37,891 nucleotides of DNA from Lachnospiraceae bacterium (GTDB taxonomy: Bacteria > Bacillota > Clostridia > Lachnospirales > Lachnospiraceae), in assembly GCA_016290905.1 (NCBI GenBank), contig JAEEVO010000019.1:1-37891 (forward strand), in the 5' to 3' direction. The position numbers were made by a program, and so were the translations under genes. Below the pieces are notes generated by a model that was not told the origin of the DNA, made no database searches, and saw nothing but the letters and a program-made list of their open reading frames with translations. Each line of letters starts with the position of its first letter. The stretch's first letter is position 1. Positions 354 through 10,614 of this stretch are shown one piece after another.

Positions 354-1730
354 ATGAGAAAAAGAGTAATTAGTTGGATATTAATATTAGTTTTGGTCAT
401 TGCTGCCGTAGGATGCAGTTCGAAAGTGGAGGATGAGATCCCGGCAGCGCCTAAAGCGACTGAGATGCCGGAAGCCACATCGTTACCTGAACCGTCTCCG
501 ACACCTGAAGCAACTTTAACTCCGGAGGCTACGCCGACACCGGAAGCTACAGCTACTCCCGAGCCGACGCCGACCATGACTCCTGACGAACTGTATGAGG
601 AAGCTATTGAAAAATCGCTTCTTGATACCGGTAATAACTACAGGTTGAAGCGTGTGCTTGAAAAAGCAAGAGCAGGTGAGGATATCTACGTCTGTGCACT
701 TGGAGGCTCTGTTACGGAAGGTGCACTTGCAAAGACGAACGATGATGGATATGCGTATCTTTTTGCAAATGAGTTTAGGGAAACGTACTGTCCGGGAGAC
801 GGATTGAATTTCCATTTTGTGAATGCCGGTCTTTCCGGTACTCCTTCATGCCTGGGGATTATGAGATATCAGAAGGATGTCGTTGATCTTCTTGGTGCGG
901 ATCCTGATATTTTGATCATCGAATTTGCCATCAATGATTATAATGAACCTACAAAAGGCAGGGCTTATGAGAGCCTGATCCGCAAGGCTCTTGAAGCTAA
1001 TGACGAATGTGCGGTCATCTTGCTTTATTCGATCGCGAAGACCGGCTGGAATATGCAGGACAATTATATTAAGATGGGGAAATATTACAGTGTTCAGCAG
1101 GTCAGCATTAAAAATGCCCTATATAAGACGAGCAAGGTTATGAGGGTTTCTCAGGGCAAATATTTTGCCGATGATTATCATCCGACCACTTACGGCCATA
1201 AGCTTATGAAGGATTGTATGATGAATCTGATCAAAGCCGTGGACGAAGAGGAAGCCGGACCAGAGATTGAGCTGCCGGAAAAGGATTTCGCCGGTGCGGA
1301 TTTCAAAGATCTGGTGATGATAGACCGTAATTCTGAAAGCAGCGGCCATTTGAAAATTGATCAGGGCAGTTTCTCGGATGTTGATGAAGCTGTAGTGAGT
1401 ATGTATTTTACGAAGAAGGCGTCATTCCCTGATAACTTCTGCCATAAGGCGGGGAGCGAAAACAAGCCTTTTAAGGTGGTTTTGAACTGCAAGAATATTT
1501 TGATCAATTATAAGACTTCTAACCGTTCGGATTTCGGTAAAGCGGATTTCTATATCGATGGCGAGCTTGTTGTTACCGCTGACGGGTATTCGGCCAGCGG
1601 CTGGAACAACTGCAATGTCATCATGGTTCTGAAACAAAACGAACCCGCAGAGCACGTACTTGAAGTCAAGATGGCAGAAGGCAGCGAAGACAAGGCGTTT
1701 ACTATTTTGGCGATCGGGTACTCGGAATAA
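354..1730 (+). CDS. Secreted SGNH/GDSL-family esterase lipoprotein
   Basis: The 458-residue product is probably an extracellular, membrane-anchored esterase, perhaps acting on acylated polysaccharide. A signal peptide (residues 1-20) ends in a lipobox with Cys21. Residues 35-78 are a Pro/Thr/Glu-rich linker of TPEA-like repeats. The SGNH core follows: block I GGSVT with nucleophile Ser119, an NAGLSGT block around 157-163, Asn194 in AINDYNE, and the terminal DDYHPTTYGH block with His276 and Asp273/274. Residues from about 320 to 458 look like a beta-rich accessory domain of unknown function. GGGGAG at 342-347 sits 6 nt before the ATG. Expression may depend on readthrough from the broken antitoxin upstream. 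The substrate cannot be read from the sequence. Confidence 0.8.
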   Translation: MRKRVISWILILVLVIAAVGCSSKVEDEIPAAPKATEMPEATSLPEPSPTPEATLTPEATPTPEATATPEPTPTMTPDELYEEAIEKSLLDTGNNYRLKRVLEKARAGEDIYVCALGGSVTEGALAKTNDDGYAYLFANEFRETYCPGDGLNFHFVNAGLSGTPSCLGIMRYQKDVVDLLGADPDILIIEFAINDYNEPTKGRAYESLIRKALEANDECAVILLYSIAKTGWNMQDNYIKMGKYYSVQQVSIKNALYKTSKVMRVSQGKYFADDYHPTTYGHKLMKDCMMNLIKAVDEEEAGPEIELPEKDFAGADFKDLVMIDRNSESSGHLKIDQGSFSDVDEAVVSMYFTKKASFPDNFCHKAGSENKPFKVVLNCKNILINYKTSNRSDFGKADFYIDGELVVTADGYSASGWNNCNVIMVLKQNEPAEHVLEVKMAEGSEDKAFTILAIGYSE

Positions 1731-3090: not shown

Positions 3091-4824
3091 TTATTCCCAT
3101 TTATATTTTTTGAATAATCCGGGAACTGCCGGGATTTCTACGATATATTCCGTCTGCATCCTGAAGTCTTCAAACCTTATCGTTTTTTGTGCGGGTATCT
3201 TTCTGCCCGTTTCGATATCTACCAGGGATGAAACCTCCTTACGGGTATGGAGGATTACCTTGTCGGTGTGTAGATCTTCTTTTACATAACGGTAAAGGAT
3301 CATGCTGCCATCTTCATAGGTAAACATTGAGAAGTTCCTGCCGCTTGCATATTCACCGGAGGTAAGAACCCTTTTAATAACGTCAACTGCCGCTTTGGGC
3401 ATCTGATTGAGGTCGCTGTCATTATCCGGAACGGCCATGATATAGAGCCTGCCTTTGCCGTAGGTACTACGAAGAAAGAGCGAAGCATGCAGATCTCCGT
3501 CGCCACCGTTAAGCAGAGACCATGAGTTGTTGTTTCCATGGACAATTTCAGGGAAAAGAACAGGTTTCCGGTGTTCTAAGTAACCGGCCATATCGCCGGT
3601 CACATGATAACGGGTTACATTGTAACGTCTGCCGGTAAGCCGTGCCTCTGTGAGACCGGCCTTTCGCAAAGCTTCTCCGGCTTCACGTAAGAATCCTGTA
3701 GTAATGACGGCATCTCCGCCCTTTTCCACGAAATCCTTTATTTTTTCAATTATATTTTCATGAGCAAGGGAGCTTTCGGTAAACAATATGCGTTCGGCAT
3801 TTTCTGGGAAGAAAGGAGTGGGCTCAATCGGTATGCCCAACATGCCAAGTCTCATCTCAAGATGGTTTTCGCCGCTTGAAGCAAACGGAATGAATACAGG
3901 AACTCCGCAGGGCTTTATATTTCTATCCAGTATCTTGTCTATCTTGGACAATTGAAGTCCCATAGCTGTTACGAGATGGTTGTTGATCAGATCCTTCCAC
4001 ATAAAGTGCATAAGCTCTTTAGCGCCTGCAAACGCAGTAAGATAAGCCTGTTCCAGATATCTGTCAACAGACCAGCACTGGTAGGTATCGAACCATCCCC
4101 CGCCGTTCCTTCCGGGCCAGGCGTTCTCAAAATATCTTAAGAGGGAATAACTCAGATACTCGGGCAGATGCTGATCGGTATATGCTACGCTTCTTGTTTC
4201 GGTTCCGGTATATGTTGCGTCAAAAATATCTCTTTGAACTTCCGGGACATATCCTGTGAAGTGGAAGGATTCTCTCCAGTTCGGATACTTTATGACAACC
4301 TTCACCTTCGGATTTACAGCCTTCATCGGTTTTACTATGAGATTTTCGGAGACATCCTTCATCAGTTCTTTTCTGAAGGTTACCCAGTCCCTGTCTCCCT
4401 TTTCTTTTATGCAACGTTCGCAAGTACAGTTTGTAAAGTAAAAATCATCGAGGATTATCTCGTCAAAAATACCGGCTGTATACTCGGAAATCTCTTTCAT
4501 GCGTTTTCTCATAGCGGGATCGGTATAACAGAAGGTTCCGAACAAACGCTGTTTCCCGCTCTCTGCACCTTCAAAATCATTGATGGTTGTCGTGATGCCT
4601 CCCGATACTTCGACTCCTTTTTCTTCCAGAAAGTTCTTGATCATCATCAGCTGATCTTTATCAACATCACATTCCGAACGGTGAGTTTCAAGGTATACTT
4701 TGTCCAATCCGATATACTTCTCGATAAAGTCATAGTCACTGCTTAAAGACTCCTTTGTGAATCCCTTTGCGGTATGCGCGGGAATGTAAACCACAGTCTT
4801 AAAATTCTTAAAGTGCTGCCCCAT
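3091..4824 (-). CDS. Glycoside hydrolase-like TIM-barrel protein
   Basis: The 577-residue product has no signal peptide, so it is probably cytoplasmic. The first 320 or so residues read as a (beta/alpha)8 barrel with strand-end acidic motifs: EIILDDFYF around residue 122-130, then a CTCERC cysteine cluster, VKVVIKYPNW and an HFMWKDL segment. Residues from about 330 to 470 resemble the glutamine-amidotransferase-like or trimerisation domain seen in GH42-type enzymes, with an FVEKGGDAVITTGF strand-turn. A small beta domain closes the protein. The layout suggests a glycosidase, but the exact GH family and the catalytic pair are not certain. AAGGGG precedes the ATG. It is monocistronic and divergent from the flavin reductase gene. 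Confidence 0.5.
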   Translation of the reverse strand: MGQHFKNFKTVVYIPAHTAKGFTKESLSSDYDFIEKYIGLDKVYLETHRSECDVDKDQLMMIKNFLEEKGVEVSGGITTTINDFEGAESGKQRLFGTFCYTDPAMRKRMKEISEYTAGIFDEIILDDFYFTNCTCERCIKEKGDRDWVTFRKELMKDVSENLIVKPMKAVNPKVKVVIKYPNWRESFHFTGYVPEVQRDIFDATYTGTETRSVAYTDQHLPEYLSYSLLRYFENAWPGRNGGGWFDTYQCWSVDRYLEQAYLTAFAGAKELMHFMWKDLINNHLVTAMGLQLSKIDKILDRNIKPCGVPVFIPFASSGENHLEMRLGMLGIPIEPTPFFPENAERILFTESSLAHENIIEKIKDFVEKGGDAVITTGFLREAGEALRKAGLTEARLTGRRYNVTRYHVTGDMAGYLEHRKPVLFPEIVHGNNNSWSLLNGGDGDLHASLFLRSTYGKGRLYIMAVPDNDSDLNQMPKAAVDVIKRVLTSGEYASGRNFSMFTYEDGSMILYRYVKEDLHTDKVILHTRKEVSSLVDIETGRKIPAQKTIRFEDFRMQTEYIVEIPAVPGLFKKYKWE

Positions 4825-6760: not shown

Positions 6761-6795
6761 AATAAGACAGAGGACCGTCCGTCCCCTGTCTTATT
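6761..6795. terminator. Bidirectional hairpin terminator of the GGGGACGG family (copy 4)
   Basis: AATAAGACAGAGGAC (6761-6775) pairs with GTCCCCTGTCTTATT (6781-6795) across a 5-base loop with one mismatch. On the minus strand it reads AGGGGACGGACGG, so it belongs to the same repeat family as the copies at 55-118, 1736 and 2461. It overlaps the stop codon of the minus-strand TerD gene (6791-6793) and separates convergent genes. Confidence 0.7.
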
Positions 6796-8869
6796 CCATT
6801 AGTGCAGTCATTTTTTCAAAATCATAACTGCGGATCAGCTTTGCGCCATCCCTGATCCCTGATTCTGCGATATTATCCGATACCACAACATCAGCTGCCA
6901 AAGGATCGGTCACAATCTCCGAAGCCATCATTGTAAAGAACGACTTAACATTTACTATGTCAGTAATACCGAAATAATCAATAAGAAAATTCATAGATGA
7001 CTCGCCCGCTACCGCGTCATAGCTGTCCTTATTCATGTTAAGCCAGATAAAGTCATTTGTCATAAGGTCAAGCCCGAACAGATAGGCAAATGTGCTGTCT
7101 GAATTTATCCTAAATGAAGACTTTACAGTCTTAGGTTCAAATACCTCTCCCGAATCTTCAACATCTCTCAGCATATATCCCGCCGTGCAGAAACAATCCG
7201 AAAACCGTACCGGAGAGAATACATTGTCACAGAAGATGATATATCTGACCGAAGGATACTCTTTCCTGAATATCTCGAGATTAATGTCAAAATATTCTGA
7301 GCCTCCGTTATATCCGCTGGTCTGGTCACCGGAATAAATTATGGCGTCTGACTGTTTTCCTGCCATTGTCCTCCAGGAAAACTCGATCTTCTTTCCGTCT
7401 TCTGTAATCCCGAAAGCTGAAATATCTATATCATTAACCTTTTCCCAGTAAGTGAAAGCTCTTATCTTCTTAAATGCATCAATATGAAGCCTGCTGCCCT
7501 TGGCCAGAACTCCCAGCCCGCCGGAAGAAGAAGTTTCCTGCAGAGGCAGGGCATAGTTCTTCATGACGTCATCTATATATACCTTGCCCAGACGGTTTTT
7601 AAGCACTCGTTCCAGACTCACGCGTATGAACTTCTTCAGACGATCCGTCTGCGCATCCGTCAAAAAACTCTTCCTTTTTTCCACATCCTTATCGGTTTCC
7701 GTATAAACTTTCAGCTTTTCAAACTTTGTAAATTTAAACGATCTGCACGATTTCTCGCGGTTTTCCGAAGAATATTTAATAAGGAGCTGCAGAAGGATAA
7801 TAATGTTCGAAGAAGAAATGCTGTCGAGCACAAGTTGGATATCTTCCTCACTCCTGCATCTGCTGATCAGATAATCAAGTTTCCTTAAAACGGCTCCGGA
7901 GCCCTTGCCGCTTTTCAATGCTTCAACAGCTCCTGCTATATTCCCCGAACCTATTGCCTTTTCAAAAACAGAATATACCGATTCGTTTGAATCCCCTCTC
8001 ATACGGTTTACAAATTCGGCTGCTTTATCGTTTTTAGGCCTATAATGGATATGATGAAGTAAACCGTTCCAAACAGCTTTTCTCTCATAACAGCTGATGA
8101 TCTCGCTTTCCGACACTGCATTACTTCCTGTTTTTGCATAAGCGGAGCCGGAAAACATACGATCGATAAGAGAGCTTATAAGCTTTCGATCCTGATTTTT
8201 CAGGTTAAGCTTCTTTACGTTTTTATTTGCGTAAAGCCTGTAATTAAGATCTTCCGCTACTTTTGTCACATCCGGAAGTTCCAGGAAACGTGCAAAATAA
8301 AGATCCCTGTTTTCCACCAGAAGCCTTATCGCCAGGTTCTTTGAAGCACACTGTTTCGGGCGATGATCAAAAGTACGCAGAAAATCTGCCACCAGCCGAA
8401 ACTGACTTTCACTAAGAGGTCTGGTACCACAGAACAGATCATCAACAATGTCTTTAAGTCTCTCTAAAGCAGCTGCCTCATCAAGAATGATGAAATCCTT
8501 TATCTCGGCATTTTCCTTAAAAGCAGTTCTCTCAAACTGCTCTTCCATAATGGAATGACCGGCCTCAGAGAAGTTTCCGAAGCCGTAAGTCTTCGTATAA
8601 TGAACTATCTGATCAAATAAAAGTTCATCAGAAGAAAGCTTCCTGACACTGTCGGGAAAACCTTTGTAAAATGGTTTAGGTACATTTACTCCCAGCATAT
8701 CCGACAGATACTTAATCATATCCCGATGAGCAAGTGCCTGACCTTCCTTTATCCTTATATTAAACATATTTGCAATGGAAAATAGGGTCTCGACGGCATT
8801 TTCGTCAGGCCCTTTTTCATTAACCAGAATATGCTTGGAAAACAGATGATCCCTAAATATTTGTTCCAT
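6791..8869 (-). CDS. Large TerD-domain stress-response protein next to a Y-RNA-like gene
   Basis: The 692-residue product is cytoplasmic, with no signal or membrane segment. Residues 1 to about 400 are helical and repeat-like, possibly an alpha-solenoid (for example SGAVLRKLDYLISRC). A conserved middle section follows (LGKVYIDDVMKNYALPLQ, then VLAKGSRLHI). The C-terminal part is TerD-like: the acidic strand NDIDISAFG, AIIYSGDQTSGYNGGSEYFDINL and an RYIIFCDNVFS strand, ending in GEVFEPKTVKSSFRI. TerD domains bind Ca2+ through such acidic clusters and belong to chemical-stress systems. I see no DxSxS MIDAS motif and no clear TROVE signature, so it is not a standard Ro60. GAGGG lies just upstream of the ATG, 12 bases after the terminator of the tRNA-like RNA, so the two are probably linked in transcription. 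Confidence 0.7.
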   Translation of the reverse strand: MEQIFRDHLFSKHILVNEKGPDENAVETLFSIANMFNIRIKEGQALAHRDMIKYLSDMLGVNVPKPFYKGFPDSVRKLSSDELLFDQIVHYTKTYGFGNFSEAGHSIMEEQFERTAFKENAEIKDFIILDEAAALERLKDIVDDLFCGTRPLSESQFRLVADFLRTFDHRPKQCASKNLAIRLLVENRDLYFARFLELPDVTKVAEDLNYRLYANKNVKKLNLKNQDRKLISSLIDRMFSGSAYAKTGSNAVSESEIISCYERKAVWNGLLHHIHYRPKNDKAAEFVNRMRGDSNESVYSVFEKAIGSGNIAGAVEALKSGKGSGAVLRKLDYLISRCRSEEDIQLVLDSISSSNIIILLQLLIKYSSENREKSCRSFKFTKFEKLKVYTETDKDVEKRKSFLTDAQTDRLKKFIRVSLERVLKNRLGKVYIDDVMKNYALPLQETSSSGGLGVLAKGSRLHIDAFKKIRAFTYWEKVNDIDISAFGITEDGKKIEFSWRTMAGKQSDAIIYSGDQTSGYNGGSEYFDINLEIFRKEYPSVRYIIFCDNVFSPVRFSDCFCTAGYMLRDVEDSGEVFEPKTVKSSFRINSDSTFAYLFGLDLMTNDFIWLNMNKDSYDAVAGESSMNFLIDYFGITDIVNVKSFFTMMASEIVTDPLAADVVVSDNIAESGIRDGAKLIRSYDFEKMTALME

Positions 8870-8880
8870 ATATTACCCTC

Positions 8881-8896
8881 AAAAAAGGCGTATCGC
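8881..8896 (-). terminator. Intrinsic terminator of the tRNA-like RNA
   Basis: On the minus strand GGCG-ATA-CGCC is followed by six T residues (8886-8881). The stem is short (4-5 bp) and shares bases with the outer stem of the tRNA-like module, so termination could compete with module folding. It ends 12 bases before the TerD gene's ATG. Confidence 0.6.
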
Positions 8897-9056
8897 CGGA
8901 TTGTTGTGCTCTACCAACTGAGCTACGGAACCCGAAGATCCCGGCGGGATTCGAACCCGCGACACCCAATGTGAAGTAAATCCGGCTAGCTGCCCATATT
9001 ACCATGATATCACAATACTAATCCCTAGATGAAGTAAGTATTGTTAGCTATGGTAC
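8881..9056 (-). ncRNA. YrlA-type Y-RNA-like RNA with a circularly permuted tRNA-like module
   Basis: Minus-strand order is: hairpin at 9054-9001 (5-bp and 8-bp helices, 17-nt loop); outer strand GCCGGATT (8986-8979); T arm with 5-bp stem and TTCGAAT loop (8960-8944); 7-bp acceptor-like stem (8943-8937 with 8932-8926, two G-U pairs) closed by a UUCG tetraloop (8936-8933); U8/A9-like TA (8925-8924); D arm GCTC-AGTTGGTA-GAGC (8923-8908); CAAC; then AATCCGGC (8902-8895), which pairs perfectly with the outer strand. The tRNA is thus cut at the anticodon and sealed at the acceptor end, as in YrlA bacterial Y RNAs. Family assignment is inference; the base pairing is directly visible. No CCA or anticodon loop exists, so it is not a functional adaptor tRNA. 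Confidence 0.85.
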
Positions 9057-9062
9057 TTCTTA

Positions 9063-9090
9063 ATGATACCATAATCCAAGGCTTTGTCAA
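9063..9090 (-). promoter_or_regulatory. Sigma-A-type promoter of the tRNA-like RNA
   Basis: On the minus strand TTGACA (9090-9085), a 16-base spacer and TATCAT (9068-9063) predict transcription starting near 9056, directly at the first hairpin. Confidence 0.7.
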
Positions 9091-9159: not shown

Positions 9160-9177
9160 TGTAAGAGCAAAGTGATT

Positions 9178-9215
9178 AAAAGGGTTAGTCATGAGCGACT
9201 GACTCTTTTATTTTT
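9178..9215 (+). terminator. Strong intrinsic terminator without an intact gene upstream
   Basis: A 13-bp continuous stem (9178-9190 with 9197-9209, two G-U pairs) has a 6-base loop and is followed by ATTTTT. The polarity is plus strand. The only plus-strand coding trace upstream is the short open frame ending at 9159. Confidence 0.7.
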
Positions 9216-9253: not shown

Positions 9254-9302
9254 TTGACAATATATATAACAAATGTTATAATAAATAAATGTAAAATGTT
9301 AT
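9254..9302 (+). promoter_or_regulatory. Consensus promoter with overlapping palindromic operator
   Basis: TTGACA (9254-9259), exactly 17 bases, TATAAT (9277-9282): a perfect sigma-A consensus. The perfect palindrome ATAACA-AA-TGTTAT (9266-9279) overlaps the -10 box, and a further TGTTAT half-site lies at 9297-9302. The XRE domain of the downstream protein is the obvious candidate for binding here (autorepression, inferred). Confidence 0.8.
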
Positions 9303-9317
9303 ACGGAGATTCGTCTT

Positions 9318-10214
9318 ATGAAAGAAATAATCTTGGAAATACGTAATCGCATAGGTGTCAGTCAGGAAGATTTGGCAAAGATGATTGGGACTTCTTTTGC
9401 TACGATAAATCGTTGGGAAAACGGACATTCTTATCCTAATAAAGCGTTACAATTACGCCTGTATGAAGTATGTAAGGAAAAAGAAGTAAACCTGGAAGAA
9501 ATGATACTCAACAAGATAAACAGAGTAGCAGAGGATATTCCCTTACATCAGGGGAAAAAAATCCTTTATCATGGTTCGAAAGCAGGCATTGAAGGGCCGA
9601 TATCTCCGATAAGCAGAGAACGATGCGATTTTGGCAGAGGTTTTTACATGGGAACCGATCCGAGACAACCGTTGACGATGATAAGTGATTTCAATCAGTC
9701 GAAGTTTTATATTGTAAGCCTTAATATAAGTAAGCTTAAGATTTTGGAAATATCCCCGGGGCTTGAGTGGGCTATGCTGGTTGCATTCCACAGAGGAAAA
9801 ATGGAAGGTGTAAAAGAAAGTAAACTGTATGAAAGCTATGCAGGAAAAATCAATGGATATGATGTGGTAGCCGGGGATATTGCAAATGACAGAATGTTTT
9901 ATGTTTTGGATAATTTCTTCCTTGGAAATATCACAGATAAAGCACTCATAAGGAGTTTGTCGGCGCTTAATCTGGGGAAACAATACGTTGCTGTTTCAAA
10001 GAAAGCGTGCGAACAGATTAAGATTGAAAAAGAAATTGAGTTATCATATCTGGAGAGAATCTGTCTGCGAGAGTTGAGCGAACAGAACCGTGTAAAAGGT
10101 ATAAATCTTGCAAATGAAATATGCAGGGATTATAGAAGGGAAGGTTTGTTTTTTGATGAAATTTTGAAAAAGTACTCGGAAGGAGGCGATGATCTTGGAC
10201 AATATTCAACTTAA
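9318..10214 (+). CDS. XRE-DUF3990 fusion (ADP-ribosyltransferase-like), probable toxin-antitoxin component
   Basis: The 298-residue product has an N-terminal XRE helix-turn-helix (residues 3-60; VSQEDLAKMIGTSFATINRWENG) and a DUF3990 domain from about residue 80: ILYHGSKAG (81-90) and FGRGFYMGTD (105-114), the two hallmark strands of this ADP-ribosyltransferase-fold family. DUF3990 proteins usually pair with a small partner gene and behave as toxin-antitoxin candidates. Here the DNA-binding module is fused to the enzymatic domain. Whether the HTH neutralises or only regulates is unknown. The consensus promoter and palindrome lie directly upstream. The partner gene overlaps its end by 20 bases. 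Confidence 0.75.
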   Translation: MKEIILEIRNRIGVSQEDLAKMIGTSFATINRWENGHSYPNKALQLRLYEVCKEKEVNLEEMILNKINRVAEDIPLHQGKKILYHGSKAGIEGPISPISRERCDFGRGFYMGTDPRQPLTMISDFNQSKFYIVSLNISKLKILEISPGLEWAMLVAFHRGKMEGVKESKLYESYAGKINGYDVVAGDIANDRMFYVLDNFFLGNITDKALIRSLSALNLGKQYVAVSKKACEQIKIEKEIELSYLERICLRELSEQNRVKGINLANEICRDYRREGLFFDEILKKYSEGGDDLGQYST

Positions 10215-10614
10215 ACTCTGTGACATCCAAGGGCGTTTGTTTGAAAACGCAAAAGAATACAACAGTGAAGATTTTATAAAGAAATTCATGAACTCCGAAG
10301 TCGCAAGACATCTTGATTCTCCGTATAATAAACTTCAATGGATGGGTGAAGAATATCTTTTGGAAGAGCTTAAAGACGAAAAAGATATATGCATTACCGG
10401 TGAAAAGTATAATCCTAATGTTATGTACTGGATCGGATATCTGTATCGTTACTGGGTAGGCTCAAGAAATCTGGCAAGCAAAAAAATATATCGCTATGCT
10501 CCGGCAAAGACTATGAAACGTAATTATATGATATTTCATACCTTTGACCCTGAAGTCGCCATTGATGATCTGATTGAGATATATAATCAGAAAAATAAGG
10601 GAAAAACAATCTGA
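10195..10614 (+). CDS. Partner gene of the DUF3990 protein (putative antitoxin/immunity)
   Basis: An ATG at 10189 is only 2 bases from the strong AAGGAGG (10180-10186), so the in-frame TTG at 10195, 8 bases away, is the better start; the product is then 139 residues. It is soluble with a helical N-terminal half (IQGRLFENAKEY) and a conserved-looking aromatic segment NVMYWIGYLYRYWVGSRNLASKK, followed by MIFHTFDPEVAIDDLIE. Proteins of this look commonly accompany DUF3990 genes, but I cannot name the family. Translational coupling to the upstream gene through the overlap fits a stoichiometric pair. Confidence 0.6.
   Translation: MDNIQLKLCDIQGRLFENAKEYNSEDFIKKFMNSEVARHLDSPYNKLQWMGEEYLLEELKDEKDICITGEKYNPNVMYWIGYLYRYWVGSRNLASKKIYRYAPAKTMKRNYMIFHTFDPEVAIDDLIEIYNQKNKGKTI

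Follow-up and report, generated by a model that had tools for sequence, protein, structure and literature searches.

The minus strand of a 37,891-nucleotide contig from a gut bacterium of the family Lachnospiraceae (JAEEVO010000019.1, assembly GCA_016290905.1; this whole stretch is referred to as the window) contains, from position 9056 to 8881, an RNA element of about 175 nucleotides that by sequence and predicted fold consists of two tandem two-stem units, directly before a gene encoding a 692-residue protein (the partner gene). The second unit carries a circularly permuted tRNA-like domain, units of this kind recur beside the same gene family in relatives from gut bacteria and phages, and the protein is predicted to combine a TerD-like domain with a helical ring like that of Ro60, the protein family from which Y RNAs are known and in humans an autoantigen. 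The locus is best explained (probability about 0.75) as a diverged Ro-Y-RNA-like particle, comprising a Ro-like ring protein with TerD and tandem Y-like RNAs, some with a tRNA elbow, that would function in tRNA surveillance or repair.

Each unit has the order outer stem, AGCUA, 8-bp inner stem, UACUUC, insert, inner stem, GAUAUC and outer stem (Table 1). An earlier note, made from the sequence of the window, had described the permuted tRNA-like domain and the 8-bp stem that encloses it; the stem is present, as are the T arm, the acceptor-like stem with its UUCG loop, U8-A9 and the D arm, in the order and places given there. That description captured half of the element, however: the left part of its interval contains a second copy of the enclosing stem motif (unit 1), which it did not mention, and the tRNA-like domain is the insert of the second of two tandem units. 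The minimum-free-energy fold of 8881-9056 on the minus strand (-57 kcal/mol, z -2.5, with 4 of 200 shuffles equally stable) includes the permuted tRNA-like structure; the stability of the fold relative to shuffles is, taken alone, weak evidence, and conservation decides. A linear tRNA finder does miss the domain, as had been expected: ARAGORN reports no tRNA in the window, and there is no linear cloverleaf with an anticodon and a free acceptor end, the acceptor being closed by UUCG. A promoter-like site with 11 of 12 matches ends seven bases upstream of 9056; the region contains two such sites, which equals the mean of shuffled sequences and so is no excess. The U-run that follows unit 2, also absent from the earlier note, ends 11 nucleotides from the start codon of the partner gene; a terminator scan that allows loops of 3-8 nucleotides only did not report an RNA end there.

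Table 1. Features of the RNA element and partner gene in the window (all on the minus strand)
Feature	Position	Strand	Description	Basis
Unit 1	9000..9055	-	plain loop between inner-stem arms	sequence, fold, unit detector
Unit 1 outer stem	9055-9050/9005-9000	-
Unit 1 AGCUA	9049-9045	-
Unit 1 inner stem	9044-9037/9019-9012	-	8 bp
Unit 1 UACUUC	9036-9031	-
Unit 1 GAUAUC	9011-9006	-
Unit 2	8886..8995	-	insert is the tRNA-like domain	sequence, fold, unit detector
Unit 2 outer stem	8995-8992/8889-8886	-
Unit 2 AGCUA	8991-8987	-
Unit 2 inner (enclosing) stem	8986-8979/8902-8895	-	8 bp
Unit 2 UACUUC	8978-8973	-
Unit 2 GAUAC	8894-8890	-	in place of GAUAUC
Circularly permuted tRNA-like domain	8908..8960	-		sequence, fold, Rfam, comparison of relatives
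T arm	8960-8944	-	GCGGG-UUCGAAU-CCCGC
Acceptor-like stem	8943-8937/8932-8926	-	7 bp, closed by C(UUCG)G
U8-A9	8925-8924	-
D arm	8923-8908	-	GG in loop
Promoter-like site	9063..9090	-	TTGACA 9090-9085, 16-nt spacer, TATCAT 9068-9063; predicted start near 9056
U-run (six T)	8881..8886	-	directly after unit 2 outer stem; possible intrinsic RNA end
GAGGG	8876..8880	-	putative ribosome-binding site of partner gene; abuts U-run	sequence, inference
Partner gene	6791..8869	-	692 residues; ATG at 8869, directly behind RNA element
Domains of partner protein	residues about 130-440 and about 461-629		predicted N-terminal region, then Ro60-like helical ring and TerD-like domain, respectively

A genome scan with the 692-residue protein found 79 loci (39-73% identical; designated below by L and a number), which to judge by their titles derive mostly from Lachnospiraceae and other Clostridia, many of them from rumen metagenomes. 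Together with the window these make 80 loci, of which 76 (the window and 75 relatives) have at least 200 nucleotides upstream of the partner gene, and coding-strand units are found there in 70 of the 76: one in 25 loci, two in 29, three in 15 and four in one. The unit detector gave 132 units in the 76 upstream regions and none on the opposite strand, compared with 48 in 3,800 shuffled regions; elsewhere in the loci it gave 21 units in 1.44 million strand-bases, two of them genuine (further upstream in L049). Units occur on phage contigs too: nine loci from IMG/VR added 24 units, in eight of the nine (the upstream sequence is identical within L096/L099 and within L103/L104). The matches listed by pattern scans of IMG/VR are mostly due to chance: of 204 loci that were read, L205, in which the protein is present too, and L317 seem genuine, and L241 may be.

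The inner stem was examined free of any selection for pairing, by comparing the anchor AGCUA-N8-UA(C/U)UU with the 8 bases before the first RAUAUY: 7 or 8 of the 8 positions pair in 82 of 104 anchors, against a mean of 18.6 and a maximum of 30 when the arms were dealt anew in 1,000 trials, and 44 different fully paired versions of the stem occur. The outer stem, which was not used in selection, pairs at 5 of 5 positions in 78 of 156 units (mean 6.6 and maximum 14 with arms redealt). These counts come from related sequences; with so many different paired stems, inherited identity is no explanation for the pairing. The permuted domain is conserved as well, in that 36 units of 35 loci (the window, 32 relatives and the identical pair L096/L099) have T arm, acceptor-like stem, U8-purine 9 and D arm in order. 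With an acceptor stem of at least 5 bp required, and among inserts of at least 60 nucleotides (48 of the 156 units), the permuted order was found in 36 of 48 inserts and in none of 9,600 shuffles of them. Among the acceptor-like stems of the 36 units 29 different 5' strands occur, and on average 6.97 of the 7 positions are paired, compared with 4.73 for partners dealt anew, at least 5 pairs having been preselected. Compensatory changes, which the earlier note had predicted for homologues, are found in both stems that it named, the acceptor-like stem and the enclosing stem.

Not every tRNA-like insert has this composition. Sixteen units have a T arm in an incomplete set, 11 with inserts of 37-46 nucleotides and five with inserts of 88-152 nucleotides, which may be misses of the classifying script. 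The 11 make up a T-arm-only type (e.g. L008 -235, L010 -174, L017 -176) that is mostly the second unit of its array. The script assigned a linear order to three units; the sequence shows linear tRNA-like domains enclosed by the unit stem in L049 and L066. ARAGORN predicts a tRNA-Ile in L048, no tRNA in L066, and in L049 and L080 tRNAs whose anticodons have two bases. The presence of linear and permuted inserts in one stem type indicates that tRNA mimicry was joined to the stem in more than one topology. Positions 4700 to 5990 of L049 contain six or more units in a row, the majority having U-runs, with permuted and linear tRNA-like inserts alternating and two of them having two-base anticodons according to ARAGORN.

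Conservation refutes the notion that the element is a remnant of tRNA genes, for instance the junction between two in tandem, or a chance fold. The broken order of the tRNA arms, the whole tRNA-like elements within some units and the existence of a junction elsewhere in the genome that mimics the YrlA family (see below) would suit such an origin, but inner, outer and acceptor-like stems covary, the shuffles never reproduce the permuted order, and the units recur before one gene family. At this locus there is no tandem-tRNA junction, since the acceptor-like strands pair with each other at 7 of 7 positions and no complete tRNA flanks them.

The product of the partner gene is predicted, according to an AlphaFold model and structural comparison, to contain a ring of helical repeats as in Ro60 and other TROVE proteins. 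The predicted ring matches Ro60/Rsr structures best, over about 250-320 residues, and among the matches listed these are the only long ones (the lists miss families ranked low by Foldseek, and absence from them was not used). Ro60 carries a vWA-like domain, whereas residues 461-629 of the model match TerD structures and not a vWA-like domain, in keeping with TerD (PF02342) in both fold and sequence. The similarity to Ro60/Rsr is in the predicted fold of the ring; there is no sequence match of the protein to TROVE (PF05731), and a TerD-like domain takes the place of the vWA-like domain. Pfam gave no match for the 692-residue protein and no RING domain, PADLOC gave no match for it, and a sequence search of the PDB (query A1) gave a single match (E 0.55). 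Residues 296-616 match the MXAN_6230/SCO0854 family (NF041916, E 2.2e-24) and residues 270-614 match phrog_33734 (E 1.2e-23); these are related proteins, although the partner protein, at 85.7, scores below the NF041916 cut-off of 600 and has no RING domain according to Pfam. The open-access literature yielded no paper on SCO0854 or MXAN_6230 by name and none that connects Y RNAs with proteins of the TerD or SCO0854/MXAN_6230 kind; an earlier mention outside open access is possible.

RNA and gene are coupled. The protein is present in four of 150 genomes of the window's family, once as fragments, and the anchor lies beside it in all four; 10 of the other 146 genomes have stray anchors, 11 in all, compared with 27 matches of a reversed control pattern. 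The exact anchor is present in 42 of 50 genomes that carry the protein (carriers, from the 79 loci), in which five anchors lie on other contigs or more than 20 kb away. Four of these are units (L119-L122, the last with one mismatch) and one is a chance match (L123). The four orphan units have no homologue of the partner gene within the stretch read, 2.3-4.3 kb on either side. They are single units, located around 4270 (-) of L119, 3690 (+) of L120, 2816 (+) of L121 and 2322 (+) of L122, and two contain the permuted tRNA domain. In L125 (1310-5011) the partner gene has decayed to fragments and the two upstream units look intact. Promoter-like sites with at least 9 of 12 matches precede the first unit in 48 of 77 loci, compared with 6.5% of 1,422 control stretches (30 of 77 and 1.0% at 10 or more matches). 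In 29 of 78 loci the last unit is followed by a run of at least five T, as are inner units in 9 of 78 (control, 4.9%). Judging from these sequence features, the orphan units, promoter-like sites and T-runs make the units look like RNA genes and not merely leaders.

A purely cis-acting leader, that is, an attenuator or autoregulatory site in the 5' untranslated region of the partner gene, perhaps sensing tRNA or the partner protein, is accordingly rejected as quite unlikely, even though the array ends just upstream of the gene in the window, where the U-run abuts the ribosome-binding site, and units precede the gene in nearly all of the loci counted above (70 of 76). Such a leader would leave unaccounted for the orphan units, the arrays downstream of the gene in the distant relatives Weasels2, Niallia and LR745208 and the row of units with U-runs in L049, and it would have no need of a tRNA with a closed acceptor. 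A regulatory role and the role in a particle can coexist.

YrlA and its partners Rsr and PNPase are described in parts of PMC8394870. As in YrlA, the ends of the RNA itself form a stem that bears a permuted tRNA domain with T arm, closed acceptor and D arm, and the element adjoins a gene for a Ro-like ring protein. Rfam YrlA (RF02553) is the top-scoring family over its whole model (positions 1-114, E 3.2e-9), at 46.5 bits against a gathering score of 69, so that the assignment to the YrlA type in the earlier note stands as to design and fails as to Rfam membership; where this whole-model alignment covers the Ro-binding stem of the family, it pairs in part and the letters of the internal loop differ. 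None of 11 relative loci searched (of the 79) matches YrlA at the gathering score. The only other YrlA match in the window's own genome (30.5 bits) falls at the junction where two ordinary tRNA genes adjoin in tandem, and therefore sub-threshold YrlA scores alone prove little; at E of 0.001 or less the model also matches in 7 of 14 control genomes. At that junction (1479-1650 of L002, contig C3 of G000), the T arm of the first tRNA gene and the D arm of the second give the appearance of a permuted tRNA. Beyond its score below the Rfam cut-off, the locus differs from YrlA in its loop sequence (AGCUA/GAUAUC and UACUUC, unlike the Rfam consensus), in the tandem arrangement of its units, most of which have no tRNA domain and some of which have a T arm only or a tRNA in linear order, and in a partner protein that cannot be recognised as Ro60 by sequence.

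The earlier note had also mentioned that YrlA RNAs bind Ro60. No TROVE/Ro60 protein is detectable by sequence in the window's own genome (81% complete) or in the 50 carrier genomes, so for a canonical Ro60 this does not apply here, and the adjacent predicted Ro60-like ring revives it in another form. Correspondingly, a plain YrlA serving a canonical Ro60/Rsr encoded elsewhere is rejected as very improbable: it would share the order of the permuted domain and the E value over the whole YrlA model, but the bit score, the matches in control genomes and at the tRNA junction, the absence of TROVE from the genome and all 50 carriers, and the tracking of a different gene by the RNA all disagree with it.

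The Salmonella rsr-yrlBA-rtcBA RNA-repair operon, as presented in part of PMC7790460, encodes a Ro-type protein, Y RNAs with a tRNA mimic and the RtcB ligase. The same three components are met among the loci described here, with the differences that the protein has TerD and that most loci have no RtcB near the gene. RtcB genes are located within 6 kb in five of the 79 relatives and adjoin the gene or array in three of them. In L010 and L012 they flank the partner gene on either side, in L015 RtcB is encoded immediately ahead of the array, and in L021 and L070 it is encoded 4-5 kb upstream (four of these RtcB genes were confirmed by Pfam). The window locus has no rtcB in the same operon, the RtcB gene of its genome being on contig C135. 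RtcB is present in 28 of the 50 carrier genomes; of the 146 genomes in the family sample that do not carry the protein, 45 have it (Fisher p 0.002). The enrichment is supportive only, because kinship was uncontrolled and the carriers were drawn from a wider range. Besides RtcB, the gene neighbourhoods of relatives contain no convincing shared gene; response-regulator-like genes, common to nine loci, were taken as background. In L041 a cluster of tRNA genes (3127-3836) lies just downstream of the partner gene.

A tblastn search beyond the close relatives gave 9 phage and 20 plasmid records, and 11 distant loci (24-32% identity, in named phages and plasmids) were examined. Most have units that share this layout but differ in loop sequence, and genes for RtcB, CCA-adding enzyme or tRNAs are near some of them. 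A generic unit detector found 12 units in the 22 flanks of the 11 loci, one of them on the opposite strand, where the shuffle means total about 1.5; at least one unit was detected in 8 of the 11. In Rhodococcus phage Weasels2 the gene is followed by a series of units, one of which contains a permuted tRNA; they lie among tRNA genes, and RtcB is encoded 3 kb further on. Lactobacillus phage LpeD has two units before the gene, a Niallia megaplasmid two after it, with UCCUUC, and the huge phage LR745208 one after it. One unit was detected in Bacteriophage sp. MT835874, two in Mycobacterium phage WXIN and one in Ruegeria phage RpAliso, each with more by eye, whereas in Rhodobacter phage RcXuper units were seen by eye only. 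A Mycolicibacterium plasmid (L335) has one weak unit. The generic detector found no units in Streptomyces L113 or Variovorax L336, the latter with rtcR 1.3 kb from the gene. The permuted tRNA-like parts match about positions 23-86 of the 114 in the YrlA model (42.3 and 34.7 bits in RpAliso, 40.7 bits in RcXuper); in both of these phages tRNA genes and a permuted transfer-messenger RNA (tmRNA) precede the gene and a nucleotidyltransferase gene follows it. In two phages (L332 1733-2223, L334 1574-2142) a permuted tmRNA directly adjoins permuted tRNA-like units. Matches to RF04354 (Plastid-ycf2) on the reverse strand of ordinary tRNA genes in L111, L115 and L116, below the cut-off of that family, are probably an antisense-tRNA artefact. 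PMC7824862 reports that some jumbo phages have TROVE together with a tRNA-like partner and, as a separate matter, that actinobacterial phages have TerD genes that stand alone.

These relatives probably represent a second, hidden Ro-type branch, in which TerD-containing ring proteins are each accompanied, lineage by lineage, by their own tandem Y-like RNAs. The layout would be common to the branch (two stems, an asymmetric loop and a pyrimidine-rich (U/C)UUC strand beside the inner stem) and the loop sequence would not, and tRNA mimicry would have been grafted in at least two topologies, the unit stem either replacing the anticodon arm (permuted) or enclosing a tRNA of linear order. The branch would have members in Bacillota, in phages that infect Actinomycetota or Alphaproteobacteria, and in a huge phage. 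A different role, that of a phage-carried decoy in conflicts over tRNA, acquired by bacteria and soaking up anticodon nucleases or other tRNA-directed toxins, is conceivable but doubtful. It would agree with the finding of both the units and the protein on contigs of IMG/VR and, surrounded by tRNA genes, in phage isolates, with the patchy distribution (4 of 150 genomes of the family) and with the competitive-inhibitor role proposed for the YrlA tRNA domain of Salmonella in part of PMC7790460; it leaves the Ro-like ring and the many units that lack a tRNA domain unexplained, and the partner protein has no match in PADLOC.

In the Ro-Y-RNA-like particle, the RNA would be made as a separate molecule from 9056 to 8881, and the ring would bind the units through the internal loop AGCUA/GAUAUC and the UACUUC strand beside the inner stem. 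The tRNA-like domain has the tRNA elbow of T and D arms, but with the unit stem replacing the anticodon stem and the tetraloop closing the acceptor end it could neither be charged nor read codons. It would act as an effector or a gate, offering tRNA enzymes, nucleases or the cavity of the ring what resembles a tRNA opened at its anticodon. The particle would thereby take part in the surveillance or repair of tRNA, and in some relatives RtcB would be the ligase.

On the other side of the element, the plus strand of the window (9318-10614) encodes a divergent pair of genes for an HTH-DUF3990 (helix-turn-helix) protein and a DUF3791 protein in a toxin-antitoxin-like layout, and a relative of the former is near the partner gene in two further loci. 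A promoter-like site with 12 of 12 matches (9254-9282, plus strand) could serve these genes, and a terminator-like hairpin (9177-9210) lies between the two directions of transcription.

If the interpretation as a Ro-Y-RNA-like particle is correct, Ro-type biology would extend to bacteria that have no Ro60 detectable by sequence, and the phage-borne systems would offer models in which to test it. A separate branch of proteins with its own Y-like RNAs would reveal which features are essential, namely the ring, the two-stem RNA and the tRNA elbow. Some relatives have RtcB, RtcR or CCA-adding genes beside the pair of protein and RNA, and a function would be suggested for the MXAN_6230/SCO0854 and phrog_33734 families.
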